A stretch of 64,000 bases of DNA from the NCBI RefSeq assembly GCF_001465545.3, contig NZ_CP013480.3, positions 4,774,001-4,838,000 on the forward strand, written 5' to 3'. The translations under genes were made by a program, and so were the position numbers. Under the pieces are notes generated by a model that was not told the DNA's origin, searched no databases, and saw nothing but the letters and a program-made list of their open reading frames with translations. Shown here in pieces: positions 50,595 through 63,906 of the stretch (position 1 is the stretch's first letter; each line of letters starts with the position of its first letter). This stretch comes from Pandoraea norimbergensis. Lineage in GTDB: Bacteria > Pseudomonadota > Gammaproteobacteria > Burkholderiales > Burkholderiaceae.

Positions 50595-51467
50595 ATGAAC
50601 TGGACAATTGAACAATTGCGCTATTTTGTGGCGGCAGCCGAAGAGGGTTCGATATCGGCTGCCGCGCGTCGTCTGGGCAAGGCCCAGTCTGCGGTCAGCA
50701 CGGCCATTGCCTTGCTCGAAGCCGATTTGGGATTCGAGCTGTTCGACCGCAGCCGGCGCAACGCCCGGCTGACCGATCAGGGCGACGTCATGTTGCTCGA
50801 AGCCAAAGAGTTGTTGCGTCAGGCCGAGGGGCTCAATCACCGGGCGAATGCGCTGGCGTACGGCGAACAGCCGCAACTCTCGCTCGCCATCGACGAAGCG
50901 TTGCCCTATCAGGCCGTGAGCGAACTGGTTCGCGATCTCGCGCACCAATTCGCCTATCTGGAGCTGACGCTGCTTAACGGCACGTCGACGGAAGTGGCCG
51001 AGTACGTGGAGAAGCAGCGCGCGGATATTGGCTTTCACGTCGACCGTGGCGCGATTTCTTCGGCGCTCGGGCACAAGTATGTGGGCTCCGCCGTGCAGGG
51101 CGTCTTTGTGGCTGGCGACCACCCGCTGGCCTTCCGCGATCACGTGACGCGCGGTGATCTGGCGAAGTACCGGCAGATTCTGTTGCAGATGGGCGACTTC
51201 ACGCCGTTGCAGCTAAGCCCGTCGATCTGGCGCGCGGATAGCTCGTACGTGATCGCCAGCATGGTGGTCGACAAGCTCGGCTGGGCCGTGCTGCCCATCG
51301 ACATCGCCCAGTACGAAGACCTGCACGAACTGCGCTGCGACGACTTGGGATTGCCGCAACTGCCGGTGCGCATGTTGTGGCGATTTGGGAGAGAACCCAA
51401 CGACGTAATGCGCTGGTGCGAGGGACGATTCGGGGAATTGCTGCGCGGCAGCGCGGCTACGTCATAA
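50595..51467 (+). CDS. LysR-family regulator, divergent from the RND pump operon
   Basis: A 290-residue LysR protein. MNWTIEQLRYFVAAAEEGSISAAARRLGKAQSAVSTAIALLEADLGFELFDRSRRNARLTDQG is the DNA-binding head, and the effector domain follows (LSLAIDEALPYQAVSELVRDLAHQFAYLELTLLNGT). Its position opposite the adaptor gene mirrors MexT-mexEF-oprN and related Burkholderia pumps, so it is probably the pump's activator. No Shine-Dalgarno sequence is visible. The gene ends in a bidirectional terminator shared with the phosphatase gene. Confidence 0.87.
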   Translation: MNWTIEQLRYFVAAAEEGSISAAARRLGKAQSAVSTAIALLEADLGFELFDRSRRNARLTDQGDVMLLEAKELLRQAEGLNHRANALAYGEQPQLSLAIDEALPYQAVSELVRDLAHQFAYLELTLLNGTSTEVAEYVEKQRADIGFHVDRGAISSALGHKYVGSAVQGVFVAGDHPLAFRDHVTRGDLAKYRQILLQMGDFTPLQLSPSIWRADSSYVIASMVVDKLGWAVLPIDIAQYEDLHELRCDDLGLPQLPVRMLWRFGREPNDVMRWCEGRFGELLRGSAATS

Positions 51468-51501
51468 AAACAATGGGCGACGCACAAAGCGCCGCCCATT
51501 G
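51466..51501 (-). terminator. Terminator of the phosphatase/TonB-receptor transcript
   Basis: On the minus strand a stem of CAATGGGCG / CGCCCATTG (51501-51493, 51479-51471), extended inward by CGC/GCG after one mismatch, is followed by TTTTTATG. It lies 22 bp after the phosphatase stop; on the plus strand it can also end the LysR message. Confidence 0.88.
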
Positions 51502-51522
51502 TCTTGCGGCTGAATGACTCGC

Positions 51523-52929
51523 CTACTTCGTATCGGCGTAAGCTTCCGGCGCGATGGCCTCCCGATCGATGACACCGGCGGTCAACGATTCGAACTGCGC
51601 CAGCGTCATCCACTCGCTGCCGACGGACTTCGGTTGATAGACAGCGCGCAACGGCGGATGCGCATCGTCAAGCGGCACGAGATGGCGCATCTGATCGAGG
51701 CTCTGCGCCACATACGACACGCGCACGAAGCGCTTGCCGTCTCGCTGACGCACGAATCGCTCGAACATCAGCATGCCACCCGGCACCACATCGTTCTCGC
51801 GATACACACCGAGCTTCCAGTCGAAACCGAGCATCGCGCGCACCTGCGAGATGTTGGTGTCGTGCGCCACGAACAGCGTCAGGCGCGCGGGCGGCGGACC
51901 ACCCTTCACCGGCTTGGCCTTCGCCACACCCGGGCCTGATTCGATCGCCATGGCCACCTGACTCAGCAACTGCGAGGCACCGCGTCGCGCCAGATACGGC
52001 GTGTGGTTGACGAGATCGTACTTGGCGCTGCGCAGGCCCATCAGACGGATCACATCGTCCTCGCCTTTCACATGCCCGAAGGCGATGCGCTCAAGCGGCC
52101 AGCCATCGGCGTATTGCATGCGAATGGTCTCGCTCATGCTCGCGCCGACCGACACCGGCCCGGTCAGTCCGATCTTGCCGCTGTCCTTCACGCCCCACGC
52201 CTTGGCATACAGACCGCACGCATCGACACCCCGCTTTGCCGCGCAGTCCGCCGGTACGCCGACCGCCTCGACCATCACGGCGACGTCCGCCTCATACTTC
52301 TTGCGCGCCAGTTCGGGCGAGCCGCCCATGGCTTGGAGAATAGCTTCGTTCGCCTTCTTGGGGTCCGGCGTGCCGAGGCCGATCTCCGCGCCATGAAATA
52401 GCGTGTCCAACGCGTTGGTGGTGTGCTGCACGGGCACACCGCAACCCGGGAACATACCGTCAAGCATCGCCTTGGCCGTCGCCTGTGTTCGTGCCGACGG
52501 GCTCGTCCAGACGAACGTGTCAGCCGCCCCCGCGCAAGCCGCCTTGCCCAGCAGTCCGGCGCGGGTAAGCGTCTGGCGTTCCCACGCGCCAAGCAACGTC
52601 ACCGCCTTGTAACCATGCGGCGTCAGTTGCCCATCCGCGACTTCGAAAGCGGGCCACGGTTGTGCAGACGCCGCGTCCATCTTGGGCGTGTCGGTCGCGG
52701 CGCGCACGCCATGACGCATCACGATCACGGCGCGCTCCAGACGCATCCCCGACGGCGCCCATGCCTTGGTCGCCGAATCTGCCGCCGAATCTGCGGCGGA
52801 TACCTCCGCAGCCATCGCAGCCGGCGACACCAGCACCGTCGTCAGGCCGCTGGCGATGACTACCGCCATCGCCGCCCACATTGCGCCGCTATTCCGGCAA
52901 TGTCGTTGCATGGATTTCCGTCTCCCCAT
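51523..52929 (-). CDS. Secreted histidine acid phosphatase (AppA phytase / Agp glucose-1-phosphatase type)
   Basis: A 468-residue protein with a signal peptide (helix MWAAMAVVIASGLTTVLVSPAAMA, cut near residue 41). The phosphohistidine motif is MRHGVRAATDTP (R72-H73-G74) and the catalytic acid lies in FVAHDTN (about residue 354), the two hallmarks of branch-2 histidine acid phosphatases, to which phytases and glucose-1-phosphatases belong. It should hydrolyse phosphate monoesters in the periplasm; phytate is plausible, not proven. Its ATG shares one base with the stop codon of the TonB-receptor gene (TGATG), so the two are translationally coupled. The terminator follows at once. Confidence 0.88.
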   Translation of the reverse strand: MGRRKSMQRHCRNSGAMWAAMAVVIASGLTTVLVSPAAMAAEVSAADSAADSATKAWAPSGMRLERAVIVMRHGVRAATDTPKMDAASAQPWPAFEVADGQLTPHGYKAVTLLGAWERQTLTRAGLLGKAACAGAADTFVWTSPSARTQATAKAMLDGMFPGCGVPVQHTTNALDTLFHGAEIGLGTPDPKKANEAILQAMGGSPELARKKYEADVAVMVEAVGVPADCAAKRGVDACGLYAKAWGVKDSGKIGLTGPVSVGASMSETIRMQYADGWPLERIAFGHVKGEDDVIRLMGLRSAKYDLVNHTPYLARRGASQLLSQVAMAIESGPGVAKAKPVKGGPPPARLTLFVAHDTNISQVRAMLGFDWKLGVYRENDVVPGGMLMFERFVRQRDGKRFVRVSYVAQSLDQMRHLVPLDDAHPPLRAVYQPKSVGSEWMTLAQFESLTAGVIDREAIAPEAYADTK

Positions 52930-55151
52930 CAGAAGTCGATACGCGCGTTCAGGCTGAGCGTACGCGGTGCCCCCACCTGGAGGTAGTTTTCCTGGTAGTA
53001 CGACCAGTAGCGGCGATCGGTCAGGTTCGTCACGTTGGCACGCAGGGTCACGAGCTTGCCATACATGCGCGTGCGGTATCCCACACCGGCGTCAAGCAGT
53101 GCCGACGGGTTGATGTAATTCACGTTGCCCGAGTCGATGGCCATACCGCCGAGGTAGCGAACACCGAACTGGAAGTACAGGCCTTGCACGGCCGGCACCC
53201 GCCACGTTGCCTGAAAGGCGGCCTGCCAGTTCGGCGCACCGACGGCGCGCTTGCCGTTCACGCCCGCCGCCGCGTTGACGTATTCCGAATTCAGCCCCAT
53301 CACGCTGGCATCGAGCGTCAGGCTGCGCAGCACGTCGACCGAGCCACCCAGTTCAACGCCCTGATAGCGCACCTTGCCGTCTTGCACGAAGTAGTTCGCG
53401 CTGTTGACGTACTCCGCCCCGCGCTCCACGCGGAACAGTGCCGCCGTGGCGCGCCAGCGCCCCTGATCCGTCTTCACGCCCACTTCGTACTGATGGCTCT
53501 TGATCGGGGCCATCTGCTGGTTGGCGTTTTTCGTCGTGCTGTCGGCGGTGCCGCCCTGCTCCAGCGATTCGACATAGCTGGTGTAGAACGTGAGATCGCT
53601 GCGCGGCGTGTACATCAACGCCACGGTCGGCGTGACCGGCGAGGCGTGGTACGTGGTGGCCGCCGCTGTCGCCGACGCGTGGGCGATTTCGTCGTACGTC
53701 TGGTAACGCACACCGGCGAGCAACGACCACGAGCCGTACGAGATACGGTCGCTCGCGAAGATCGCGCGTTGCGTCAGCTTGTCGTCACCATACGTGCCGC
53801 CGCTGAAATTCACGTTGTTGGCCGAGTAGATCGTCGGCGAGTACAGATTGCCGTTGCCGACCACCACCTTCGGCGTGTTGACCGACTTGTTCGACAGCAA
53901 CACCAGGTTGCTCGCACCGAGGACGATTTCGTGCGTGAGCGGTCCGGTCTTGAACTTGCCTTCGACCGTTGCCTGCACTTCGTCGAACTCGTAGCTGTGG
54001 TATTCGGCGCTGATGCGGTCCGAGTAGTCGCCCTTGTTGCTCGAGATGTAGTACTGGTCCTTCTTGTACTGGCGCACCGAATCCGAGTAGCGATAGGCCA
54101 CCTTGGCGACCCATTCCGGCGCGATCTTGTACTGCACGCCGAGCGTGGCCATCTTGTAGGTCACGTCAGTGTAGGAGCCGTTGCTGTACAGCTTCGAGCG
54201 GCCCGAAATCGGATCGGGCACCGAGTACTTCGGGCTGGTGATGATGTCGACGCCGCCGGACGTGCGGCGCTCTTGCCACATTGTGTCGAGCGTGACGGTC
54301 AGGTCGTTGGTCAGGCGCGCATCGAGGCCCAGACCCACCGACGTGCGATTGATCTTGGCGCTGTCGGCGGCGGCATTGCCTTCCTCATGCACCGCGTTGA
54401 AGCGGAAACCGAAGCGGTCGTCCTTGCCGAAGCGCCCGCCCGTGTCGAGGTGCTCCTTCCACACACCGTCTTCCGACCAGCCCTGGTCATAGCTCAGCGT
54501 GAACTGCTCGGTTGCGCGCTTGGTCACGTAGTTGACGATACCGCCAGGGCTGCCAAAGCCATACATGAAGCCGGTCAGGCCCTTGAGCACTTCGATGCGG
54601 TCGAACATTTCCAGCGGCATTTCCACGCCGCGATTCACGCTCGCGAGACCGTCGATCTTGTAGCCGTTGAGGTCGTCGAGCGGCAGGCCTCGCACGGCGA
54701 GTGTGGCCGGGTGCGTGCTGTAGCTCGTGCTGATCGAGGTAACCGATGCGTCGTACTTGACCGCTTCCGAGAGGATGTTGGCCTGACGGTCTTCGATCTC
54801 CTCACCGGACACCGATTTGATCGAGAACGGCGTTTCAATTTCCGGATGATCGCCGAGTGCACCGGCGCTGGCGCTGCGCTTGAGGCTCGTCGGTGAAGTG
54901 ATCTGTGCGGCGGAGACATTCACTTCCGGCAGCGTGGCTTCACTGCCGGCCGCTGCCAACACGGTAGTGGCGGCGGCGTCTGCTTTTGCCTGCGCTTGCG
55001 CGGCGAGCGGCAGCAAGCCTGCGAGACAGAGTCCAGCCGCGACGAGGCGCGCGTACAGCGTCGAAGTATGAGGAGACACGCGTGGCGCGGCAAATGCGGC
55101 CGCGGGGGCAGTCTTGCGATGCGTCAGGCGTTGCGATAGATCGTGGCGCAT
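52929..55151 (-). CDS. TonB-dependent outer-membrane receptor (siderophore-receptor type)
   Basis: About 740 residues. A long signal peptide (LVAAGLCLAGLLPLAAQAQA) leads to a TonB-box-like segment TLPEVNVSA, the plug domain (PFSIKSVSGEEIEDRQANILSEAVKYDASV ... LAVRGLPLDDLNGYKIDGL ... VLKGLTGFMYGFGSPGGIVNYVTKR) and a 22-strand-type barrel ending in RTLSLNARIDF. The layout is that of TIGR01783 siderophore receptors, with no N-terminal signalling domain. Coupling to a phosphatase gene, and the tonB-exbB-exbD genes just upstream, suggest uptake of a phosphorylated ligand or its metal complex rather than a siderophore. The start at 55151 is preferred to 55247. Confidence 0.9.
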   Translation of the reverse strand: MRHDLSQRLTHRKTAPAAAFAAPRVSPHTSTLYARLVAAGLCLAGLLPLAAQAQAKADAAATTVLAAAGSEATLPEVNVSAAQITSPTSLKRSASAGALGDHPEIETPFSIKSVSGEEIEDRQANILSEAVKYDASVTSISTSYSTHPATLAVRGLPLDDLNGYKIDGLASVNRGVEMPLEMFDRIEVLKGLTGFMYGFGSPGGIVNYVTKRATEQFTLSYDQGWSEDGVWKEHLDTGGRFGKDDRFGFRFNAVHEEGNAAADSAKINRTSVGLGLDARLTNDLTVTLDTMWQERRTSGGVDIITSPKYSVPDPISGRSKLYSNGSYTDVTYKMATLGVQYKIAPEWVAKVAYRYSDSVRQYKKDQYYISSNKGDYSDRISAEYHSYEFDEVQATVEGKFKTGPLTHEIVLGASNLVLLSNKSVNTPKVVVGNGNLYSPTIYSANNVNFSGGTYGDDKLTQRAIFASDRISYGSWSLLAGVRYQTYDEIAHASATAAATTYHASPVTPTVALMYTPRSDLTFYTSYVESLEQGGTADSTTKNANQQMAPIKSHQYEVGVKTDQGRWRATAALFRVERGAEYVNSANYFVQDGKVRYQGVELGGSVDVLRSLTLDASVMGLNSEYVNAAAGVNGKRAVGAPNWQAAFQATWRVPAVQGLYFQFGVRYLGGMAIDSGNVNYINPSALLDAGVGYRTRMYGKLVTLRANVTNLTDRRYWSYYQENYLQVGAPRTLSLNARIDF

Positions 55152-55216
55152 GGTGATCGAAGTGATGGGCGAAGGGTTGTGGTTATCTGGCAACCGGCTA
55201 CGTTGGTGTCGCTGTC

Positions 55217-55254
55217 GGTGCCGGTGCGGGCGCGCAAACGCCCCCACCGGTGCC
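55217..55254 (-). other. Strong hairpin between exbD and the receptor gene
   Basis: Arms 55217-55232 and 55239-55254 pair over 16 positions with few mismatches (CCGGTG/CACCGG and GGGCG/CGCCC blocks) around a six-base loop. No T tract follows on the minus strand, so it is more likely a stability or processing element separating tonB-exbBD from the receptor message than a terminator. Confidence 0.5.
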
Positions 55255-55355
55255 GCAGCAGCGGCCGGTGTGCCTTATCGAAATAGGTGGAACTCGGTGA
55301 ATCTTTGCGAAGCCGCGCACGAGGACGCGAGATCTGGATTCCGGCCGTTGGGCCT

Positions 55356-55772
55356 TCAGCGTTTCGCCGCCTCGCTGACGAAACCGATCTTGGCGAGGCC
55401 GCCGGACTGCGCCGCCGACATCACCTGCATGACGTCCTCGTAAGCCGTCTTGCGGTCGGCGCGCAGGTGCAGCTCGGGTTGCGGCTGCGCACGGGCGGCA
55501 TCGGTAATCAGGACGCGCATGGCGTCGAGATCAACAACACGGTCGTTCCAGTGAATGACGCCCGTGGCGTCGATGGCCACGTCGATCGTTTCCGGTTTGA
55601 CTTCGGCAGGAGCCGACGCCGCACGCGGCAGATCGATCTTCACGGCGTGTTGCAGGGCGGGCATCGTGATGATGAAGATCACGAGCAGCACCAGCATCAC
55701 GTCCACCAGCGGCGTAGTGTTGATCTCGGGGTTGAAGTCGTCTTCGACGTCGTTATGCACGGCACCGGCCAT
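55356..55772 (-). CDS. exbD: ExbD, TonB-system motor component
   Basis: A 138-residue protein with one N-terminal membrane helix, NTTPLVDVMLVLLVIFIITMPAL, holding the conserved Asp of the proton path (D in PLVDVMLVLL, about residue 28), then a periplasmic domain ending DVMQVMSAAQSGGLAKIGFVSE. With ExbB it converts proton motive force to drive TonB. Its ATG directly abuts the exbB stop codon. Confidence 0.93.
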   Translation of the reverse strand: MAGAVHNDVEDDFNPEINTTPLVDVMLVLLVIFIITMPALQHAVKIDLPRAASAPAEVKPETIDVAIDATGVIHWNDRVVDLDAMRVLITDAARAQPQPELHLRADRKTAYEDVMQVMSAAQSGGLAKIGFVSEAAKR

Positions 55773-56555
55773 TTACGCAGCCTCCGGCATGGCTTCGCGG
55801 CGGCGCGATTCCTTGGCCGTCACGAGCGCCTTCACTTCAGCGTCGGCACCCGCGTCGACACGTTCACCGCCTTCCGGCAAACGCTGTCCGACGACGATCA
55901 TGTCGTGCAGTTCGTAGATGAACGCGGACAACGCGGCCACCGACGTCTTGTTGGCGCGCAGCAAGGCGTTGTAAGCCAGCGATGCAGGAATCGCGACGGC
56001 CAGACCGAGCGCGGTCATCACCAGCGTCTCACCGACCGGACCGGCCACTTCGCCGATGCTGGCCTGCCCCGACGCACCGATGGTCATCAGCGCGTGATAA
56101 ATCCCCCACACGGTGCCGAAGAGCCCGATGAACGGCGCGCTGGAGCCGACCGTGGCGAGCACCGGCATGCCGCTTTGCATGCGCACCTGACGGCGCGCAA
56201 TGCGTTCGCGCAGTGCACGAGTGAGCCAGTCGGACAGCACCGGCGGCGTACGACCGGCGGCGGTGGCCTGATGATGTTGCAGCGTGGCGTCCAGACTCGT
56301 GTGCGCCAGTTCAACGAACGGGTTACCGCGCGCGTCGCCGTCGAGCGTGGCGACACCGTCGCGCAGCGAGCCGGCCTTCCAGAATGCGCCGGTGGCCTGA
56401 TCGGCCATGCGGCGCAGACGCCAGTTGGCGAACGCCTTCGTCACGATGACGTACCACGACGCCACCGACATCACGAACAACAGGAGGGCGACGCCCTTGA
56501 TCACGCCGTCGGCTTGCGCCCACAGGGTTTCGAATCCGAATTGAGGAGTTGCCAT
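55773..56555 (-). CDS. exbB: ExbB, TonB-system motor component
   Basis: A 260-residue MotA/TolQ/ExbB-family protein. Three membrane helices: GVALLLFVMSVASWYVIVTKAFA near the N-terminus, and the pair GMPVLATVGSSAPFIGLFGTVWGIYHAL / GPVGETLVMTALGLAVAIPASLAYNALL that lines the proton path. It forms a pentameric ring around ExbD. The gene lies 35 bp after tonB and directly before exbD. Confidence 0.93.
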   Translation of the reverse strand: MATPQFGFETLWAQADGVIKGVALLLFVMSVASWYVIVTKAFANWRLRRMADQATGAFWKAGSLRDGVATLDGDARGNPFVELAHTSLDATLQHHQATAAGRTPPVLSDWLTRALRERIARRQVRMQSGMPVLATVGSSAPFIGLFGTVWGIYHALMTIGASGQASIGEVAGPVGETLVMTALGLAVAIPASLAYNALLRANKTSVAALSAFIYELHDMIVVGQRLPEGGERVDAGADAEVKALVTAKESRRREAMPEAA

Positions 56556-56590
56556 AAAAGCCTCGGTAGAAATAGGCGGGTCAGGTGGGA

Positions 56591-57313
56591 TCAGGTGTCG
56601 AGCGAAAAACGCAGCGGCACGATCACATAGACGGCTTGCGGCTTGCCGTCCTCGGTATAGGGTTTGAACACGGCGTGCTGCACGGCACGAATGCCAGCGG
56701 CATCGAGTGCGGCAGAGCCGGACGACTGGCGCACCGTGATCTCGCGCGGCAATCCGTCGGCCCCCACGAGTACGCGAACCGTCACGACGCCCTCCTCGCC
56801 CATGCGGCGCGACGACTCCGGATAGGTGAGCACAGGGGCGCGCAGGTACTGCACGCCGTGCGTGATGGTGCGCGGCGTCGCGGGAACGACGGGTGACGGC
56901 GTTGCCGCCGGTGCGGCTGCGGCGCTCGGCGCAGCCGTTGCCGGGGCTGCCGGTGCCGGTTCCGTCGCAGGAGCACTCGGCGCGGCTTCGCTTTTCGGCG
57001 ACGGGGCGACCGGGCGCGGCGTTGTCTTCGGCGTGACTTGTGGCTTCGGTTGCGGCTTCTGCGGCTGGGGTTGAGGCTGCTGCGGTTGCGCGACGGCAGG
57101 CGTCGGGGCCTCTTGCACGAGCGTGGCGTAGATGGGCGTGGGCGGCGTAATCACCGCCGGTTCGCTATGCCATTGCAGCGCCAGCATGAGGGCCGCAACG
57201 TGCAATGCGATCACGCCGACCAATCGCAGCGCTTGCGAAGCACGCGGCGCCACCAACCAACTGGGTAGCGCCGGAACTTGCAGCAGCGGCATTGCGCCAT
57301 TCGCTCCAGACAT
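56591..57313 (-). CDS. tonB: TonB energy transducer
   Basis: A 240-residue protein with an N-terminal membrane anchor (LRLVGVIALHVAALMLALQW, about 30-49), a Pro/Gln/Lys-rich periplasmic rod (QPQQPQPQPQKPQPKPQ and following Ala-Pro stretch, about 75-150) and the C-terminal TonB domain (VLTYPESSRRMGEEGVVTVRVLVGADGLPREITVRQSSGSAALDAAGIRAV...F). AAGGAGAG precedes the ATG. It opens the tonB-exbB-exbD-receptor-phosphatase set. Two LacI-type operator candidates lie upstream. Confidence 0.93.
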   Translation of the reverse strand: MSGANGAMPLLQVPALPSWLVAPRASQALRLVGVIALHVAALMLALQWHSEPAVITPPTPIYATLVQEAPTPAVAQPQQPQPQPQKPQPKPQVTPKTTPRPVAPSPKSEAAPSAPATEPAPAAPATAAPSAAAAPAATPSPVVPATPRTITHGVQYLRAPVLTYPESSRRMGEEGVVTVRVLVGADGLPREITVRQSSGSAALDAAGIRAVQHAVFKPYTEDGKPQAVYVIVPLRFSLDT

Positions 57314-57379
57314 CGAACTCTCCTTGTGCGTCTTCGCAGACGCAGGTCATCAACGGCACCGAATCCCATCTCGTGTTTT

Positions 57380-57394
57380 TGCAAATCATTTGCA
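57380..57394. promoter_or_regulatory. Fur-like 7-1-7 palindrome upstream of tonB
   Basis: TGCAAATCATTTGCA is a perfect 7-1-7 inverted repeat agreeing with the Fur core (TGATAATnATTATCA) at 10 of 14 defined positions. It shares four bases or more with the adjacent LacI-type operator candidate, so both regulators could compete there. The Fur call is tentative. Confidence 0.35.
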
Positions 57395-57405
57395 CACGTG
57401 TGCAA
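57390..57405. promoter_or_regulatory. LacI-type operator candidate 1 (proximal, upstream of tonB)
   Basis: TTGCACACGTGTGCAA is a perfect 16-bp palindrome with a central CG, as in operators of LacI-family regulators. It lies 77 bp before the tonB start codon and shares the TTGCA-nn-CG-nn-TGCAA form with two other sites at 57560 and 62534. Confidence 0.6.
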
Positions 57406-57559
57406 AACGACGCAGAAGAAATGCGATTCGGACAACGAGACGAAGTGTAGAAATTCAGTGTGACCTCACCGTGACATGGCTGGCCGTGGTTAGTGAATTT
57501 TTCGTGTCGTCCGGACATCGTTCGCATCGGGTCCGTCGTCGTCTTGCTCACGCGAGAAA

Positions 57560-57575
57560 TTGCAATCGAATGCAA
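57560..57575. promoter_or_regulatory. LacI-type operator candidate 2 (distal, upstream of tonB)
   Basis: TTGCAATCGAATGCAA, near-palindromic with a central CG. It lies 170 bp centre to centre from candidate 1 and between the stop codon of the phosphatase-family gene and tonB. Two sites at this spacing could support DNA looping. Confidence 0.55.
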
Positions 57576-57604
57576 TCGCGGTGAAATCAATGCCGTGAAA
57601 ACGC

Positions 57605-58540
57605 TTACTCTGGAGATACCGAATGTCGCTGCGTCGACGCATTCACCACATCGTCCAGCGTGTTGTAGAGCGCCTGACTGGAAGCGAGAATCGGGTTGCC
57701 GCGCGTGAGCCCATCGGCGGCGAGGAAGTCGCTGACCTGCCCGCCCGCTTCCTGCACGAGCACGATCCCGGCCAGACAATCCCACGCATGAATATGCGGT
57801 TCGTAGTAGCCGATGAGCCGTCCCGCTGCGGTGTACGCCATCATCAGCGCGCCCGAGCCGATGCGCACGAACATGCCGCCACGTGCGAGCCAGCCATCGA
57901 GAAACGCCAGAAAGTCAGCGCGATCGACGCGATGCGACACGCCCACACCCAGTACGCCTTGTGTCGGCGCATTCACGTCGGCAACGTTCAGCGCCGTGCT
58001 GACGCGAGGCACATCGGGCTCGCCGCCATCCGGTGAGCGTGGTGTCGAGGCACTCGCCATCACGGCATTGTCGACAAATGCGCCCAGCCCGGTTGCGCCG
58101 TGAAACAGCTCATCGGCATTCGGATCGTAGATCGCGCCGATGGCCGGCACGCCGTCAACGATGACGGCGATCGACACACACCACGCGTGCATACCGTGGA
58201 GAAAACACGCGGTGCCGTCGATCGGATCGACCACCCATGTGATGCGTGACGGCGCGGGCATGTCGCCTGCGGCTGCGCTTTCTTCGCCGAGGAAGGCGTC
58301 CGTCGGAAACGCTGCTGCAACGCGCTCACGTACCAGTTGTTCGATAGCGCGATCGGCCACGCTCACGACATCCTGCACGCCCTTGTATTCCACCGTGAGC
58401 GCGTCGCGCGTGCGAAACATGGCGAGGGCGCGAAGTCCGGCTTCGCGGGCGATGACTTGGGCGAGTTGGTAGCGCGCATCGAGCGTGTCGTCGTTGTCGA
58501 CGCTTGCCGGCGAGGCCGTTTGACGTTCAGTTCCGGTCAT
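57605..58540 (-). CDS. Inositol-monophosphatase-family phosphatase
   Basis: A 311-residue member of the IMPase/FBPase/HisN-type lithium-sensitive phosphatases. The metal-binding motifs are GEES (residues 85-88), DPIDGT (105-110) and the C-terminal HAWDCLAGIVLVQEAGGQV (about 251-269). No signal peptide, so it acts in the cytoplasm, removing phosphate from a sugar or inositol phosphate, or another small phosphate ester. It overlaps the ABC ATPase gene by four bases, tying it to the importer; the likely reading is that it dephosphorylates what the transporter brings in. A gluconeogenic or HisN-like role is less likely in this setting. Confidence 0.88.
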   Translation of the reverse strand: MTGTERQTASPASVDNDDTLDARYQLAQVIAREAGLRALAMFRTRDALTVEYKGVQDVVSVADRAIEQLVRERVAAAFPTDAFLGEESAAAGDMPAPSRITWVVDPIDGTACFLHGMHAWCVSIAVIVDGVPAIGAIYDPNADELFHGATGLGAFVDNAVMASASTPRSPDGGEPDVPRVSTALNVADVNAPTQGVLGVGVSHRVDRADFLAFLDGWLARGGMFVRIGSGALMMAYTAAGRLIGYYEPHIHAWDCLAGIVLVQEAGGQVSDFLAADGLTRGNPILASSQALYNTLDDVVNASTQRHSVSPE

Positions 58541-59649
58541 TGGGCGGCTCCTACGATAGCGGCGCCGCGCGCATGCAAGCCAACGGCGACGCGCGTGCCG
58601 ACGGGGAACGGGAGTTCGAATTGATGTGACAAGACCACGAGGTCTCCTGCGGAGGTTTGAACGAAGTACTGCGTGGCGCGCCCCAGATAGGTGGCGCGCC
58701 GGATTTCACCGATGGGACCGTGCAGCGCGTCGGCACGGTCTTCGGTATGGGGGACGGCCTGCAACGTCAACGCTTCCGGCCGGATAGCGACGCGAGCGTT
58801 AGTCAACGCCGGTCCGGCATAGGGCAGCCTCAGCAGCAGGCCGTGAAAATCGCATTGCGCGTGACCGTCGCGTTGTTCGGTGACGGGCAGATCGATCAGG
58901 TTGGCGTTGCTGATGAATGTTGCGACGAACGCATCGGCAGGCTGCTCGACGAGCGTGCGCGGCGCATCCTGCTGGGCGATCCGTCCGTCGTGCATGACGA
59001 CGACCTGATCGCTGATGGCGAGCGCTTCTTCCTGATCGTGCGTGACGTAGACGACCGTCAGGCCGAGCTGAGTCTGAAGGTCACGAATATCTTCTCGCAC
59101 TCGCACACGCAGACGCGCATCGAGATTCGACAGCGGCTCGTCGAACAGCATCACCTCGGGTTCCAGCACCAGTGCGCGGGCGACGGCAACACGTTGTTGC
59201 TGCCCACCCGATAGTTCGGCCGGCATGCGTTGCGCCATGGAAGCGAGACCGACACGCGTCAACGACTCGAAGACACGTTCGCGCAGTTCCTGCTGCGGCA
59301 CGCGCGTGACCGTGAGGCCATAGGCTACGTTCTCGAACACTTTCATGTGCGGAAACAGCGCGTACGACTGGAACACCATGCTCACATCGCGATCACGAGC
59401 ACCGAGACGTGTCACGTCGCGGCCACCGAGTGTGATGCGTCCTGCGTCCGGCAGCTCAAGCCCGGCGATCAGGCGCAGCGTGGTCGTCTTGCCGCAGCCG
59501 CTCGGCCCCAGCAGCGTCGTCAGCGCGCCCGGAGCGACCGTGAAAGACAGGTCGGGAATGGCGACGTGCGTGCCCCATCCTTTGCGGACGTTTTCAAAAA
59601 CGAGTGCGCCGCGTGACGTGGATGAGGGTGCGGATTTGTTTGCGTTCAT
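58537..59649 (-). CDS. ABC importer ATPase (AfuC/FbpC/PotA type)
   Basis: A 370-residue ATPase: Walker A LLGPSGCGKTT (about residues 46-56), Q-loop MVFQSYALFPHMKV, signature LSGGQQQRVAVARAL, Walker B EVMLFDEPLSNLD and the H-loop VTHDQEEA, followed by a TOBE domain (VAIRPEALTLQ ... YLGRATQYFVQTSAGDLVVL). It energises the double permease encoded upstream. It overlaps both the permease gene and the phosphatase gene by four bases, showing a tight operon. Confidence 0.92.
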   Translation of the reverse strand: MNANKSAPSSTSRGALVFENVRKGWGTHVAIPDLSFTVAPGALTTLLGPSGCGKTTTLRLIAGLELPDAGRITLGGRDVTRLGARDRDVSMVFQSYALFPHMKVFENVAYGLTVTRVPQQELRERVFESLTRVGLASMAQRMPAELSGGQQQRVAVARALVLEPEVMLFDEPLSNLDARLRVRVREDIRDLQTQLGLTVVYVTHDQEEALAISDQVVVMHDGRIAQQDAPRTLVEQPADAFVATFISNANLIDLPVTEQRDGHAQCDFHGLLLRLPYAGPALTNARVAIRPEALTLQAVPHTEDRADALHGPIGEIRRATYLGRATQYFVQTSAGDLVVLSHQFELPFPVGTRVAVGLHARGAAIVGAAQ

Positions 59650-61466
59650 GCGAGTGATTTCCGGCCAATGCGTGGCATGTTGCCAAGACCTTCTGGCGTC
59701 GATTCAATCGCCAACACCGTCGATCGTGTGCGTTTGGTTTCGCTAACGCGCAGTGCGGTTTCCAACGAGACGACGATGATGAATAACGCGACAACCAGCA
59801 CACCGGCATACGCCAGTGCCGGGCCATAGCTGCCATTCGAGATGAGACCAATCAGGTAGGTCGTTGCGAGATCATGGTCGGCGCTCACGAGGAACACGAC
59901 CGCACTCACAGCGGTTGCCGCGCGCACGAATCCGTAGATCAGCGCCGCCGCACAGGCGGGGCGCAGCAACGGCAGCAGCACGCGGCGCAGCGTCGTCCAG
60001 CTACCGGCGCGCAATGTGGCCGATGCTTCATCCAGACTCGGATCGATCTGCGCCAGCGCGCCTACGGTCGTTCGCAAACCCATCGGCATGTTCCGGAACA
60101 GGAACGACAGCACGAGGATTGCGCCGGTACCGGTGAGCACCAACGGTGCGGCGTTGAACGTCTGCGCGTAGGCCAGCCCGATCACAGTGCCCGGAATCGC
60201 AAACGCGGCAACGAGTGCGCCCTCAAGCCAGCGGCGCCCAGCAAATTGACGGCGTGCGATCAACCAGCCGCCGAACACGGCGGCGACGGCGGTCAGCGGT
60301 GCGGCAATCGCCGACAGGCGCAGGGTTTCCAGTGCGGACGGCCATGCCTGCCCGGTGAGCGTAATCGCGCCGTCTTCCATTGCGACGCCGAATACATCCG
60401 TCAAGTGAGCCAGCGTCCAATGAAAATCGACGCCCCACAGCGTGACGAATCCACCGGCCAGCAACGTGCCATAGACGGCCAGCGTCAGCAGGCACCACGG
60501 GGTGACGAGCGCGGTCAGCGACCACGAGAGACGCGCGTCGAGCGGCGCCGCACGCCCGCCGCCGCCCTTGCCGTTCACAGCGACGTAGCTGCGCTCGCCG
60601 AGCCACCGGCGTTGCAGCGTGAACGCCCCCAGCGCCATCAACAGCAGCCAGACGGCGAGCGCGGCGGCGCGTCCGGGGTCTTGTTCAGCACCGACGACTG
60701 CGAAGTACAAATCGGATGACAGCACACGGAAGTTGCCGCCCAGCACCAACGGGTTACCGAAGTCGGCGAGGCTTTCGATGAAGCACAACAGCAGCGCGTT
60801 GGCGAGGCCGGGACGCATCATTGGCCACGTCACGGTACGGAAGGTCTGCCAATGCGTTGCTCGCAGCGTGGCAGCGGCCTCTTCCAGCACAGCAGGCAAG
60901 CGTTGCACGACACCCAATACCGTGAGGAATGCGACCGGCGTGAAGGCCAGACACTGCGCTAGCCAGAGTCCTAGCGGGCCATACAGCCAGCGGCCGGGCG
61001 TTACACCGAGCCAATCGGCCACGGCCTGCGTGATCGCGCCGTTTCTGCCAAGCAGCAGAATCAGTGCGAGGCCCACCGCGAACGGCGGGGTGATGGCAGG
61101 CAGCATCGCAACGCCGCGCAACAACGCCGCGCCGGTGCGCGAACGCGTCAGTGCGCTACGTGTGGCGAGCAAAGCCAGTGCAGCGCCAAGGATCGTGGAT
61201 GTGACGGCGGAGGCGATGCCGAGCGCAATGCTATGCCAGCCGCTGCCGCACGCCCCGGCGCCGCGCACGCAGCCCAGTCGCCAGACGTCGGGCGCCAGCG
61301 TGGCCCACGCGGCGGGTAGATCGCCCCCAGCGTTGTGCCATGCGGGCACCAGTGAGAAGAAGCTGTTCGCGAGCGGCCACGCCACGAAAATGCCCAGCGC
61401 CAGTACCGTGGCGATGAGCACGCCGCGCGTGAAACCGTCGTGCGGCAGCTTAGCGAGCGTGGGCAT
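59646..61466 (-). CDS. ABC importer permease, two fused membrane domains (AfuB/FbpB type)
   Basis: A ~606-residue permease with about twelve membrane helices and two EAA loops, LEEAAATLRATHWQTFRTVTWPMMRPGL in the first half and LDEASATLRAGSWTTLRRVLLPLLRPAC in the second. Such fused permeases serve Fe(III)-type, thiamine-type and sugar-phosphate (AfuABC) importers. The start at 61466 (MPTLAKL) lies 17 bp inside the end of the binding-protein gene; upstream in-frame starts are less likely. A Cys pair in the loop after helix 1 (LGCVRGAGACGSGW) is unusual for the family. Confidence 0.9.
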   Translation of the reverse strand: MPTLAKLPHDGFTRGVLIATVLALGIFVAWPLANSFFSLVPAWHNAGGDLPAAWATLAPDVWRLGCVRGAGACGSGWHSIALGIASAVTSTILGAALALLATRSALTRSRTGAALLRGVAMLPAITPPFAVGLALILLLGRNGAITQAVADWLGVTPGRWLYGPLGLWLAQCLAFTPVAFLTVLGVVQRLPAVLEEAAATLRATHWQTFRTVTWPMMRPGLANALLLCFIESLADFGNPLVLGGNFRVLSSDLYFAVVGAEQDPGRAAALAVWLLLMALGAFTLQRRWLGERSYVAVNGKGGGGRAAPLDARLSWSLTALVTPWCLLTLAVYGTLLAGGFVTLWGVDFHWTLAHLTDVFGVAMEDGAITLTGQAWPSALETLRLSAIAAPLTAVAAVFGGWLIARRQFAGRRWLEGALVAAFAIPGTVIGLAYAQTFNAAPLVLTGTGAILVLSFLFRNMPMGLRTTVGALAQIDPSLDEASATLRAGSWTTLRRVLLPLLRPACAAALIYGFVRAATAVSAVVFLVSADHDLATTYLIGLISNGSYGPALAYAGVLVVALFIIVVSLETALRVSETKRTRSTVLAIESTPEGLGNMPRIGRKSLA

Positions 61467-62532
61467 AGATTTCGGTGTTCCAGCGCTGCAACAGACGCTT
61501 GCGCGTCGCCGGGTCGCCAAATCGCGCGGCATCGTAGTCGATCAACTTGATGCTGGACGGCTGCGGGGCCAGCTTCGGCACGGCGGCGTCGCGGTTCGAT
61601 GGCATCTGGTAAGCGTGTGCCTGTTCTGCCAGCGATTGAACATCGGCACGCAGCGCGAATTCGTAGAACTGCTTCGCCAGCGCCGGATGCGCTGCCCCGG
61701 CGATCAGGCTCATGCCGCCAATCTCGAAGCCAGTGCCTTCACACGGTGCGACGGTATCAATGTCGAAACCGGCCACACGTTGCTTCACGAGGTCGTGCAG
61801 GAATTCGATGGCGATGCTGGCTTCGCCGCGCGATGCCGCTTCGCCCGGTGCGACGCCCGTTGCCGTGTACTGGCTGACGTTGGTGTTGAGCGCGCGAAGG
61901 TAGCGGAACGCTTCGTCTTCGCCCATCAGTTGTACGAGGGTGGCGAGTGCGACGTAAGCCGTGCCGGAGGCGTTCGGATTGGCGATTTGGATTTCGCCCT
62001 TCCACGCAGGCGAGAGCAGATCGCGCCAGCATTTCGGCGGCTCAAGACGGCGCTTGCGCAGCTCTGCGGCGTTGTAGCCGATGCCGAGCAGCCCCTGATA
62101 AACACCGACGGTGCGGTCGCGGCCGGTCTGTGCGAAACGTTGCGCCCACGGCTGCAACTGTGTCAATGCCGGGGAGCGGTAGGTCTCGGTCAGGCCTTCG
62201 AATGCGGCTTGCAGATGCGAATCGCCGGAGCCTGCCCACCATACGTCGAACTGCGGACGCGCACGTTGCGCGCTCAGCAGCGCGAGCGCTTCGCCAGCGC
62301 TCTTGCGGATCATGGCCACACCGACGCCAGTCTCTTTCTCGAAGCGCTTCTTCATCAGTTGGCACCATTCGAGATCTGCCGAGCAGAGCAGGCTCAGGCG
62401 ATCGGCGGCGTGGGCGGTCGATGGCGGGAGCATCGCGGTGACGGCGACGACACTCAGGACAGCCGCCACCGAGCCGCGCGCGGCACGCAGCAGACGTGAT
62501 GTCAGGCCGCTGCGGTCGCGGTGTTTTCGCAC
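61450..62532 (-). CDS. ABC importer periplasmic substrate-binding protein (AfuA/FbpA family)
   Basis: About 360 residues with a signal peptide (SVAAVLSVVAVTAML, cut after AHA). The fold is that of the Fe(III)/phosphorylated-compound cluster: LSLLCSADLEWCQLMKKRFEKETGV at the start, ANPNASGTAYVALATLVQLMGEDEAFRYLRAL in the hinge. The tandem tyrosines that bind iron in FbpA are absent; the loop reads AIEFLHDLVKQR, and a Glu follows 23 residues after the HD aspartate. As I recall it, the sugar-phosphate binder AfuA uses HD and a later Glu in this way. The start is unsure: GTG at 62532 gives a normal signal peptide, the ATG at 62589 adds 19 residues and would enclose an operator candidate. Confidence 0.85.
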   Translation of the reverse strand: MRKHRDRSGLTSRLLRAARGSVAAVLSVVAVTAMLPPSTAHAADRLSLLCSADLEWCQLMKKRFEKETGVGVAMIRKSAGEALALLSAQRARPQFDVWWAGSGDSHLQAAFEGLTETYRSPALTQLQPWAQRFAQTGRDRTVGVYQGLLGIGYNAAELRKRRLEPPKCWRDLLSPAWKGEIQIANPNASGTAYVALATLVQLMGEDEAFRYLRALNTNVSQYTATGVAPGEAASRGEASIAIEFLHDLVKQRVAGFDIDTVAPCEGTGFEIGGMSLIAGAAHPALAKQFYEFALRADVQSLAEQAHAYQMPSNRDAAVPKLAPQPSSIKLIDYDAARFGDPATRKRLLQRWNTEIYAHAR

Positions 62533-62533
62533 G

Positions 62534-62549
62534 TTGCACTCGTTTGCAA
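62534..62549. promoter_or_regulatory. LacI-type operator candidate 3 (in front of the binding-protein gene)
   Basis: TTGCACTCGTTTGCAA, near-palindromic with a central CG, of the same TTGCA-nn-CG-nn-TGCAA form as the two sites upstream of tonB. It ends two bases before the proposed GTG start and 75 bp after the LacI gene stop. Confidence 0.55.
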
Positions 62550-62624
62550 TGGTGGGCGCAATGGCGGGAGGTTTGGGCTTCGTCAGCATGGGAAGGGTCG
62601 GAGTCGGTCCGTGTTGGGCGCGGG

Positions 62625-63644
62625 TCAGCCGGTGGTGGCTCGGCGCACGAAGGTGACGGGGGCGATGCGGACTTCTGCGGCGCGCGAGAAATCGGTGATG
62701 CGTTGGGTGAGCATGTCGACCACGCTATGGGCTAGCGCGTCGGTGTTCTGGGCGATGGTCGAGAGGCGGTAGCTATCGAGCGCGGCGTGCTGGATGTCGT
62801 CGAAGCCGACGATGCGAATATCTTCCGGGAAGCGGCGGCCGAACGCGCGGCGGGCTTCGTCCATGAAGCCGAGCGCGACCATGTCGGTGGCGCAGAAAAC
62901 ACCATCGGGTGCGCTCGACGCGTCGGCGAGCACTTCACGCGCGGCCAGTTGCCCGGCTTCGTACGACGAGATGGTGGAGTTGCACAGCGTGATCCGGTTC
63001 TTGCGTACGCCCAGACGCGCGAGTGCGTCGACATAGCCTTCGCAACGTTGGCGTCCGCTGAAGTGCGTGGCGTGCGGGCCGATGAAAGCGAAGCGCGTTG
63101 CGCCTGAATCGAACAGTTCGCGTGCGGCGAGTGCGGCGCCAGCGTGGTTATCGCTGTTGATGACGTCCGCGCCTTCCAGCTCGGGGGCACGGTTGATCAT
63201 CGCGACGGGGACTTTGCGCTCGATGTATTCGCGCGCCAAGGAGAGCGGCGGCGCGCCGGAGGTCATGATGACACCGGCGATGCGGTAGCTCAGCAGCCGT
63301 TGCAGGGCGTAGCTGGTCTGGTCCGGATCGTCCGCATTCATGAGAATGGGCAGCAGGCCGCGAGCGGCCAGATGGTGCGCGATCGGGGCAAGCAGTTGGG
63401 CGCGAAAGGGACTCACCAGCGCGGAGGTGACGACGCCGACGAACGTGCTGCGGCCCTGAATCATGTTCCGGGCATTGATGTCGACGTGGTAGTTCAGCGT
63501 CTTCGCGGCTTCGAGCACACGGGCCCGCGTCTTCGGAGAGACGCTGGCGCCGGGCGTGAAAGTGCGCGAAACGGCGGAGCGAGACACCCCAGCCATGCGC
63601 GCCACATCCTCGGCAATCGCCCAGCTCTTTTCTTTGTCGGTCAT
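62625..63644 (-). CDS. LacI-family transcriptional regulator
   Basis: A 339-residue LacI/GalR protein. The head WAIAEDVARMAGVSRSAVSRTFTPGASVSPKTRARVLEAAKTLNYHVDINARNM (about residues 8-61) has the helix-turn-helix and hinge. The PBP1-like effector domain follows (TFVGVVTSALVSPFRAQLL ... AMINRAPELEGADVINSDNHAGAALAARELFDSGATRFAFIGP ... IRIVGFDDIQHA). Its ligand is probably a sugar- or polyol-related compound. It is the first gene of the strand-wide minus cluster, 92 bp upstream of the binding-protein gene, and the best candidate to bind the TTGCA-nn-CG-nn-TGCAA sites. Confidence 0.92.
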   Translation of the reverse strand: MTDKEKSWAIAEDVARMAGVSRSAVSRTFTPGASVSPKTRARVLEAAKTLNYHVDINARNMIQGRSTFVGVVTSALVSPFRAQLLAPIAHHLAARGLLPILMNADDPDQTSYALQRLLSYRIAGVIMTSGAPPLSLAREYIERKVPVAMINRAPELEGADVINSDNHAGAALAARELFDSGATRFAFIGPHATHFSGRQRCEGYVDALARLGVRKNRITLCNSTISSYEAGQLAAREVLADASSAPDGVFCATDMVALGFMDEARRAFGRRFPEDIRIVGFDDIQHAALDSYRLSTIAQNTDALAHSVVDMLTQRITDFSRAAEVRIAPVTFVRRATTG

Positions 63645-63829
63645 CGAAACAATGGGAGCGGGTACGCAAGAGAGGCCAGCGCAGAAGTGGCCGCGCCAGC
63701 ACGATGACCGGGTAGCTTAGAGGGGGGTTGTGTCGGGGATGTGACAGGGGGAGGCGTTGCGGGGTACTGAATGCGGGAGGTGCTGCGGGGTGACTTCGCG
63801 GTATGACGCGGTCAGCTCGCGAGAGTAGC

Positions 63830-63906
63830 TGGCCTGCCCAGAGGGATTCGAACCCCCGACCGTCGGCTTAGAAGGCCGATGCTCTATCCAACTGAGCTAT
63901 GGGCAG
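63830..63906 (-). tRNA. tRNA-Arg (anticodon TCT)
   Basis: The 77-nt minus-strand sequence starts CTGCCCATAGCTCAGTTGGA, carries the anticodon TCT in GCCTTCTAAGC and ends with an encoded CCA. The acceptor CTGCCCA/TGGGCAG pairs fully. It reads AGA codons. It lies 186 bp upstream of the LacI gene on the same strand. Confidence 0.95.

Follow-up and report, generated by a model that had tools for sequence, protein, structure and literature searches.

Much of the organic phosphorus of plants and soil is stored as phytate, the phosphorus reserve of plant seeds, and bacterial phytases are well studied as enzymes. A question raised by a ten-gene locus of Pandoraea norimbergensis is whether its importer, its outer-membrane receptor and its exported phosphatase act together, and on which phosphate ester. 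The locus lies in a 64-kb stretch of DNA, hereafter the window (C1:4774001-4838000 of the 6.17-Mb, single-contig genome G000), to which all positions below refer. Our analysis indicates that the locus very probably scavenges organophosphates and that inositol phosphates are the probable class of substrate; with fair rather than high confidence, we read it as two blocks that together scavenge inositol phosphates, most likely phytate. In this reading, a polyphosphorylated inositol, or a metal complex of it, would cross the outer membrane through the TonB-dependent receptor, powered by its own TonB-ExbB-ExbD, and the exported histidine acid phosphatase (HAP) would trim it to a monophosphate. An AfuABC-like importer would then move inositol monophosphate inward, and an inositol-monophosphatase-family enzyme (IMP) would release the last phosphate in the cytoplasm.

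Organization of the locus

The features of the locus, in the direction of transcription, are as follows; SBP denotes the substrate-binding protein.

63714..63746, minus strand: promoter-like element preceding LacI; TAAGCT follows 10 bp after PhoB-box-like repeats TGTCAC-N5-CGACAC (putative function)
62625..63644, minus strand: LacI-family regulator, recognition helix GVSRSAVSRTF (profile match; helix kept in relatives)
62534..62549, plus strand: predicted LacI operator with one mismatch, within the called SBP frame at its 5' end (pattern match)
61450..62589, minus strand: AfuA/P5PA-type periplasmic SBP (sequence comparison, pocket alignment)
59646..61532, minus strand: fused ABC permease, AfuB-like (profile match)
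58537..59649, minus strand: ABC ATPase with TOBE_2, AfuC-like (profile match)
57605..58540, minus strand: IMP, taken as cytoplasmic (profile match)
57560..57575, plus strand: second, weaker predicted operator, two mismatches (pattern match)
57444..57476, minus strand: promoter-like element preceding tonB; TACACT follows 10 bp after PhoB-box-like repeats TGTCAC-N5-GGTCAC (putative function)
57390..57405, plus strand: predicted LacI operator TTGCACACGTGTGCAA, no mismatch (pattern match, alignment of gaps)
56591..57313, minus strand: TonB (profile match)
55773..56555, minus strand: ExbB/TolQ family (profile match)
55356..55772, minus strand: ExbD/TolR family (profile match)
52929..55247, minus strand: TonB-dependent receptor, siderophore-receptor subfamily (profile match, comparison with relatives of solved structure)
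51523..52929, minus strand: HAP whose start resembles a signal peptide; phytases are its nearest relatives of solved structure (profile match, sequence comparison)
51467..51505, minus strand: terminator hairpin (folding)

The initial annotation had described ten minus-strand genes in a row, closed by one terminator. All ten open reading frames were found in place (51523-63644) with the families named there. The Pfam matches were His_Phos_2, the barrel and plug of TonB-dependent receptors, ExbD, MotA_ExbB and TonB_C on one side, and Inositol_P, ABC_tran with TOBE_2, BPD_transp_1 (two stretches), SBP_bac_6 and LacI with Peripla_BP_3 on the importer side. The terminator was likewise recovered as a hairpin at 51467-51505, with a stem of 17 pairs that is U-rich in its 3' arm. 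Its folding energy of -33.9 kcal/mol (z -6.4) was equalled by none of 200 shuffles; a simple terminator scan had overlooked it and folding revealed it. Order and strand thus stood, but a single unbroken operon did not, because 291 bp separate IMP from tonB. The genes form two compact blocks. In the LacI block, LacI is followed after 35 bp by SBP, which overlaps the permease by 83 bp, and overlaps of 4 bp join permease to ATPase and ATPase to IMP. In the TonB block, TonB, ExbB, ExbD and the receptor are spaced by 35, 0 and 108 bp, and the receptor overlaps HAP by 1 bp. Since the 291-bp gap holds its own promoter-like element before tonB, two transcription units are likely. A sigma-70 promoter scan returned no site, against 2.0 expected.

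The names ExbB and ExbD follow from the adjoining tonB, as the TolQ model scored higher than ExbB (158.5 vs 113.6 bits) and the TolR model higher than ExbD (101 vs 80.1 bits). With six TonB_C matches in G000 in all, the local TonB motor is not the sole one.

Binding protein, phosphatase and IMP

The initial annotation had called the binding protein AfuA/FbpA-type. It groups with AfuA and P5PA (both entries traced through PMC8427247) and not with ferric-binding proteins: the matches reached 2.2e-75 for AfuA and 3.2e-67 for P5PA, and 2.1e-10 at best for ferric-binding proteins. Thirteen of the 19 AfuA contact positions listed in PMC8427247 are identical in the aligned SBP. AfuA without the triad His205/Asp206/Glu229 does not bind (PMC4546632); this triad is kept as His265, Asp266 and Glu289, together with AfuA Tyr103 and Gln269. 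At the phosphate contacts, Thr150 is kept (Thr210) and Ser37 is replaced by Ala98. The changes Thr11 to Asp, Gly36 to Ser, Ser37 to Ala and Thr60 to Ser are common to the LacI-linked Burkholderiaceae SBPs where the alignment covers them (11 loci, L009 only in part, and L198). Both rhizobial SBPs described below have the first two changes and one also has the third. An AfuABC-like operon with no LacI or IMP match nearby (G314) has none of the four. The predicted pocket is therefore like that of AfuA on the ring side and altered at the phosphate end; because the ring contacts are kept and the phosphate end is changed in common, we read the ligand as a ring-phosphate other than glucose 6-phosphate.

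The nearest structures to HAP were the 3-phytase 2wnh (1.5e-57), which we take to be Klebsiella PhyK, and 4ars (4.1e-56), presumably from Hafnia, followed by AppA (2.4e-43) and glucose-1-phosphatase (8.5e-33). It matches His_Phos_2 with 90.7 bits and carries RHGVR at residue 72 and HDTN at residue 356, which are features of branch 2 histidine acid phosphatases. The IMP matches Inositol_P with 177.3 bits and contains the motifs WVVDPIDGT and WDCLAG. Inositol 2-monophosphate is the end product of histidine acid phytases, and many inositol monophosphatases act poorly on it. A second, AppA-like HAP lies away from the locus (G000:C1:896613-897845; L138:9307-10965; 420.9 bits vs the NF007552 cut-off of 585), and most sampled members of the genus have paralogues of it at 29-33% identity.

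A predicted operator before both blocks

One LacI-type palindrome, TTGCACNCGNGTGCAA, occurs at 57390-57405 without mismatch, at 62534-62549 with one mismatch and at 57560-57575 with two. These three matches at up to two mismatches compare with 0.61 expected in the window, and 2 of 100 shuffles reached three. The copy before tonB is one of several invariant blocks of the IMP-TonB gap (seven of nine gaps aligned). One regulator for both halves, as had been suggested at the outset, is thus supported by a predicted operator before each block. The locus also has the features given in PMC4052901 as the criterion for a local LacI regulator, namely a LacI helix-turn-helix and an even palindrome with a central CG before the predicted targets. 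A Fur site was also sought in the IMP-TonB gap and rejected: the best Fur-like score was 12/19, and 300 shuffles of the gap gave a mean best of 10.6 and a maximum of 14.

The operator was first spotted by eye in Burkholderiaceae and only later located in Pseudomonas and enterobacteria. Exact matches precede IMP in five of five Pseudomonas loci, and also SBP in three Burkholderiaceae genomes lacking the TonB block (G379, G413 and G448), where further copies lie near the porin or phosphatase. All four enterobacterial loci have TTGCACNTANGTGCAA directly before the permease, differing from TTGCACNCGNGTGCAA in the two central bases, and both rhizobia have a copy with one mismatch before SBP. Among 53 phosphatase loci, the relaxed form TTGCACNNNNGTGCAA was present in 17 of 17 with this LacI vs 1 of the 36 others, the latter being L016, which covers a 12-kb end of a Pseudomonas contig and holds two HAP genes. 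The LacI regulators of relatives with this operator share the helix GVSRSAVSR[TA]F.

Conservation of the gene order

The 53 loci came from a search of genome contigs with the phosphatase as query; being phosphatase-selected, they do not give the frequency of LacI-IMP without a phosphatase. Eight of them have the window's gene order (L005-L011 and L050; six Pandoraea, one a metagenome-assembled genome, and two Paraburkholderia); the LacI of L007-L010 lay beyond the first fetched stretches and was confirmed from further sequence. With G000 included, the whole order, whose conservation the initial annotation had proposed to check, is kept in nine genomes of two genera, seven Pandoraea and two Paraburkholderia, at identities of 57-93% for HAP and 44-91% for TonB.

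Among 249 sampled genomes of the family, SBP (E <= 1e-60) was found in 10 and HAP (E <= 1e-20) in 26, the latter comprising six of operon type (at least 70% identity), Chitinasiproducens (G304) at 46% and 19 with only a 29-33% paralogue; no other cluster gene was found near the G304 gene. Receptors of at least 86% identity occurred in six of these genomes. Weaker matches (up to 44%, E <= 1e-120) were common, and 111 genomes had a receptor match of any kind. SBP, operon-type HAP and the close receptor occur together in one and the same set of six genomes, G000 among them, out of 31 from the genus. Across the order, a HAP match at E <= 1e-20 is rare (6 of 300 genomes, G000 included). Among the best 120 of 333 receptor matches, a close group of 49-62% identity comes from Pseudomonas, Herbaspirillum, Duganella, Janthinobacterium and Undibacterium (P0004-P0106), and plasmid records hold receptor relatives of only 37-43%.

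Exchange of transport parts in other lineages

A TTGCACNCGNGTGCAA-like operator and the LacI helix recur beside an IMP-family gene in Pseudomonas, enterobacteria, rhizobia and other Burkholderiaceae, often accompanied by a phytase-like phosphatase. As judged from sequence, a core of LacI, operator and IMP is kept across these lineages and the transport parts are exchanged. The Pseudomonas version (5 of the 53 loci: L017, L019, L021, L029 and L057) reads LacI, IMP, two frames, HAP, HAP. For L019 these frames were identified as a major facilitator superfamily carrier, which fits the PgtP, UhpC and GlpT models best (no score above cut-off), and as a KdgM porin. Frames of similar size occupy these positions in L021, L057 and L017, where the first is split; L029 was not gene-called. 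The enterobacterial version (4 of the 53: L020, L022, L044 and L052) consists of HAP, permease (28-30% identical to the window's), ATPase (42-44%), IMP and LacI, and the gene-called L020 and L022 also encode a binding protein of another kind and have a frame the size of a porin before HAP. This version was also read on a conjugative Klebsiella pneumoniae plasmid, where the porin scanned (L199) is KdgM; of 23 plasmid records with a HAP match two were read, and in the other, from Azospirillum, the cluster was not present. Two rhizobial plasmids, read out of 153 plasmid records with an SBP match, carry a divergent LacI followed by SBP-permease-ATPase-IMP, and in L196 ugpBAEC adjoins the LacI-AfuABC-IMP cluster. 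Loci from Bartonella, Pectobacterium, Lonsdalea, Mangrovibacter, Tatumella and some Pseudomonas have a related phosphatase, and in the sequence fetched around it neither IMP nor SBP was matched.

Four Burkholderiaceae without the TonB block (G379, G413, G448 and Burkholderia arboris, L198) have LacI-SBP-permease-ATPase-IMP with a Porin_4 porin nearby in all four (the L198 ATPase frame was not called) and an AppA-like phosphatase in two, G413 and G448 (474 bits each, below the cut-off of 585). In G448 the AppA-like phosphatase, mmsA, iolE, iolD, iolC and iolG lie between porin and LacI, and exact operator copies precede the phosphatase and SBP, with another at the iolC/iolG junction; this arrangement ties the predicted LacI regulon to inositol. 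The initial annotation had held that its proposal would fail if the two halves occurred independently in relatives with unshared regulation. The importer does occur without the TonB half in these four genomes and the two rhizobia, but with the same LacI subfamily and operator, the latter at one mismatch in the rhizobia. The TonB half is one of several alternatives.

Organophosphate import, which the initial annotation had proposed, is thus supported by the closeness of SBP to AfuA and P5PA with its kept ring contacts, by the L019 carrier in the same slot, and by the positions of the G448 operators. The inositol phosphate reading draws further on paralogous LacI regulators whose operator is the same and which adjoin PI-PLC-X genes in G373, G438 and G413, and on the rhizobial LacI-AfuABC-IMP clusters. 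A broader reading, which we offer tentatively and put well short of an even chance, is a modular phosphate-ester utilisation locus: inositol monophosphate would be imported intact and sensed by LacI, with unrelated or distantly related transporters serving across alpha-, beta- and gammaproteobacteria. A dedicated TonB receptor, taking in phytate or Fe-phytate before dephosphorylation, would have replaced the porin in Pandoraea and some Paraburkholderia, where control would also have been tied to phosphate starvation.

Evidence against the inositol phosphate reading and alternative explanations

Several results weigh against a system for inositol phosphates. HAP scored 228.7 bits, far from the cut-off of 585 for the AppA-type phytase equivalog NF007552, and both HAP and IMP fall below every equivalog cut-off (IMP, 120 bits vs 332 for the inositol-1-monophosphatase equivalog NF008027). 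The HAP motif reads RHGVRAA, where the usual form is RHGxRxP. The receptor is of the siderophore type (TIGR01783, 320.1 bits vs a cut-off of 223.5), with FemA and BauA as its nearest solved relatives. Importer and porin occur with no HAP match at E 1e-20 in the whole genome of G379 and with none in the 21 kb fetched from B. arboris. The operator at one mismatch occurs three to five times in seven Pandoraea genomes with the locus and one to four times in eight without it (reversed-operator control, 0-2 in the same genomes). Some exact copies in locus-free genomes (G373 and G392) adjoin a paralogous LacI (52-53% identical, same helix) and an ABC importer operon, and G438 has both a window-type locus and such a paralogous cluster with an exact copy; cross-talk between the LacI paralogues is therefore possible. 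Lastly, none of 11 Pandoraea genomes (ten from the genus sample and the metagenome-assembled G542) had iolD or iolE over cut-off, and both genes exceeded it in five of five other tested carriers of the LacI-linked cluster.

Because iolD and iolE were not detected, Pandoraea seems to be without the canonical catabolic route for freed inositol, and, given also a PhoB-box-like element at both promoters, the gain there is probably phosphorus rather than carbon. A Pho box consists of tandem TGTCA-type repeats with an 11-bp period, 10 bp before the -10 box. At both window-type promoters, the pattern TGTCAY-N6-G..AY-N10-TA...T was present in all those of the 17 loci of this type whose sequence includes the promoter concerned; it was not found in 17 scanned loci of other types. 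A stricter PhoB-like pattern had six matches in G000, two of them at this locus, and none in the reversed control; similar TGTCAC and TGACAC repeats lie upstream of pstS. Since these patterns were fitted after the two locus sites had been seen, which also counts among the points against our reading, added PhoB-type control at both promoters is only weakly suggested.

The imported ester might instead be a sugar phosphate (hexose 6-phosphate or glucose 1-phosphate) taken up for carbon, with HAP and IMP as broad sugar phosphatases. The AfuA triad kept in SBP defines hexose/heptose phosphate binders, HAP matches the glucose-1-phosphatase model with 161.9 bits, Pandoraea has no iol genes over cut-off, and the LacI effectors assigned in PMC4052901 are mostly carbohydrates. 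We nevertheless consider this unlikely in view of the common changes at the phosphate end of the pocket, the phytases nearest to HAP and the iol genes beside the same operator in G448; moreover, a TonB receptor should be needless for small sugar phosphates. Less probable still is an iron system in which the receptor would import iron(III) bound to a xenosiderophore or to phytate and the phosphatase would dephosphorylate the carrier. The siderophore-type receptor and the use of phytate as an iron carrier by Pseudomonas speak for it, but no Fur-box-like score exceeds background in the IMP-TonB gap, SBP is distant from ferric-binding proteins, and porins occupy the receptor's place in relatives.

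A lipid head-group system, acting on glycerophosphoinositol or cyclic inositol phosphate from phosphatidylinositol and not on phytate, would account for the paralogous LacI/operator clusters that adjoin PI-PLC-X genes and an SBP_bac_1-type importer in G373, G438 and G413 (the LacI in G413 being 46% identical), and for ugpBAEC in L196. The window locus, however, is without a phospholipase gene and has a phosphatase nearest to phytases, and we give this explanation only a slight probability. That two unrelated operons are neighbours by chance is barely credible: the importer block does occur without the TonB block in G379 and rhizobia, and 291 bp separate the two, but the order is kept in nine genomes of two genera and a predicted operator precedes both blocks. 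Within the scavenging of inositol phosphates that we favour, the receptor is the least certain part. Its phosphate-ester cargo is suggested by its position, the shared operator and the porins in the same place elsewhere, and receptor-mediated phytate uptake as such appears doubtful, at less than an even chance.

Relation to known systems

The hexose/heptose-phosphate importer AfuABC (PMC4546632) and P5PAB (PMC8427247) resemble the present importer in binding-protein clade, fused permease, ATPase and ring-side contacts; here, by contrast, the pocket is altered at the phosphate end and the importer is linked to LacI, an IMP-family enzyme, a receptor and a phosphatase. HAP shares family, RHGxR and HDTN motifs and a signal-peptide-like start with the histidine acid phytases AppA and 2wnh, but scores far lower on the AppA-type model and is encoded within a transport locus. 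LacI-type IolR regulons (PMC4052901) are alike in regulator family, in an even palindrome with a central CG and, in G448, in inositol genes at the operator, whereas the present regulon centres on a phosphate-ester importer; that survey describes seven IolR groups, and its main text does not contain the words phytase, phytate or phosphatase. UhpT/GlpT/PgtP antiporters, the best models for the L019 carrier, are unrelated to the ABC importer. FemA and BauA belong to the same receptor family; the present receptor differs in its neighbours, a phytase-like enzyme and a TonB, ExbB and ExbD of its own.

A 2025 review, in the context of gut absorption, describes phytate as being without specific transporters (PMC12482443). 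Full-text literature searches, with papers seen in part, found no description of this gene set and no bacterial import route for the products left by phytases. The parts are ordinary families; their assembly, the swapped variants and the common operator appear undescribed within the literature searched. The locus provides a proposed route from phytate to cytoplasmic phosphate that can be tested, and its LacI and operator can be used for finding further members. It also raises the prospect that some proteins annotated as 'iron ABC transporters' and 'siderophore receptors' belong to organophosphate systems and carry the wrong name. A conjugative Klebsiella plasmid likewise carries the enterobacterial version.

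Additional observations

The PI-PLC-X genes lie at L181:3-820, L184:9147-9899 and L180:16392-17303, with an adjacent ABC importer of SBP_bac_1 type where scanned. On the K. pneumoniae plasmid pKP121-2 (L199, 6216-14970), the porin-phosphatase-importer-IMP-LacI cassette lies between IS1 and IS91 transposase genes. The enterobacterial IMP is fused to a stretch like the dual-specificity-phosphatase domain DSPc, below the Pfam cut-off (L022:15550-17109 and L199:12528-13967), which in L022 reads CRGGRSR, a C-x5-R pattern. Downstream of an exact operator copy in B. arboris, L198:6705-7883 encodes a 392-residue protein with an N-terminus that by eye resembles a twin-arginine translocation signal; it had no Pfam or NCBIfam match and is a candidate new enzyme of the regulon. 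In G000, a tRNA-Arg (tct) gene at 63830-63906 (L139:1830-1906) lies directly upstream of LacI. Several other Pandoraea have a different sequence at this place, so the locus may be an island that has moved.

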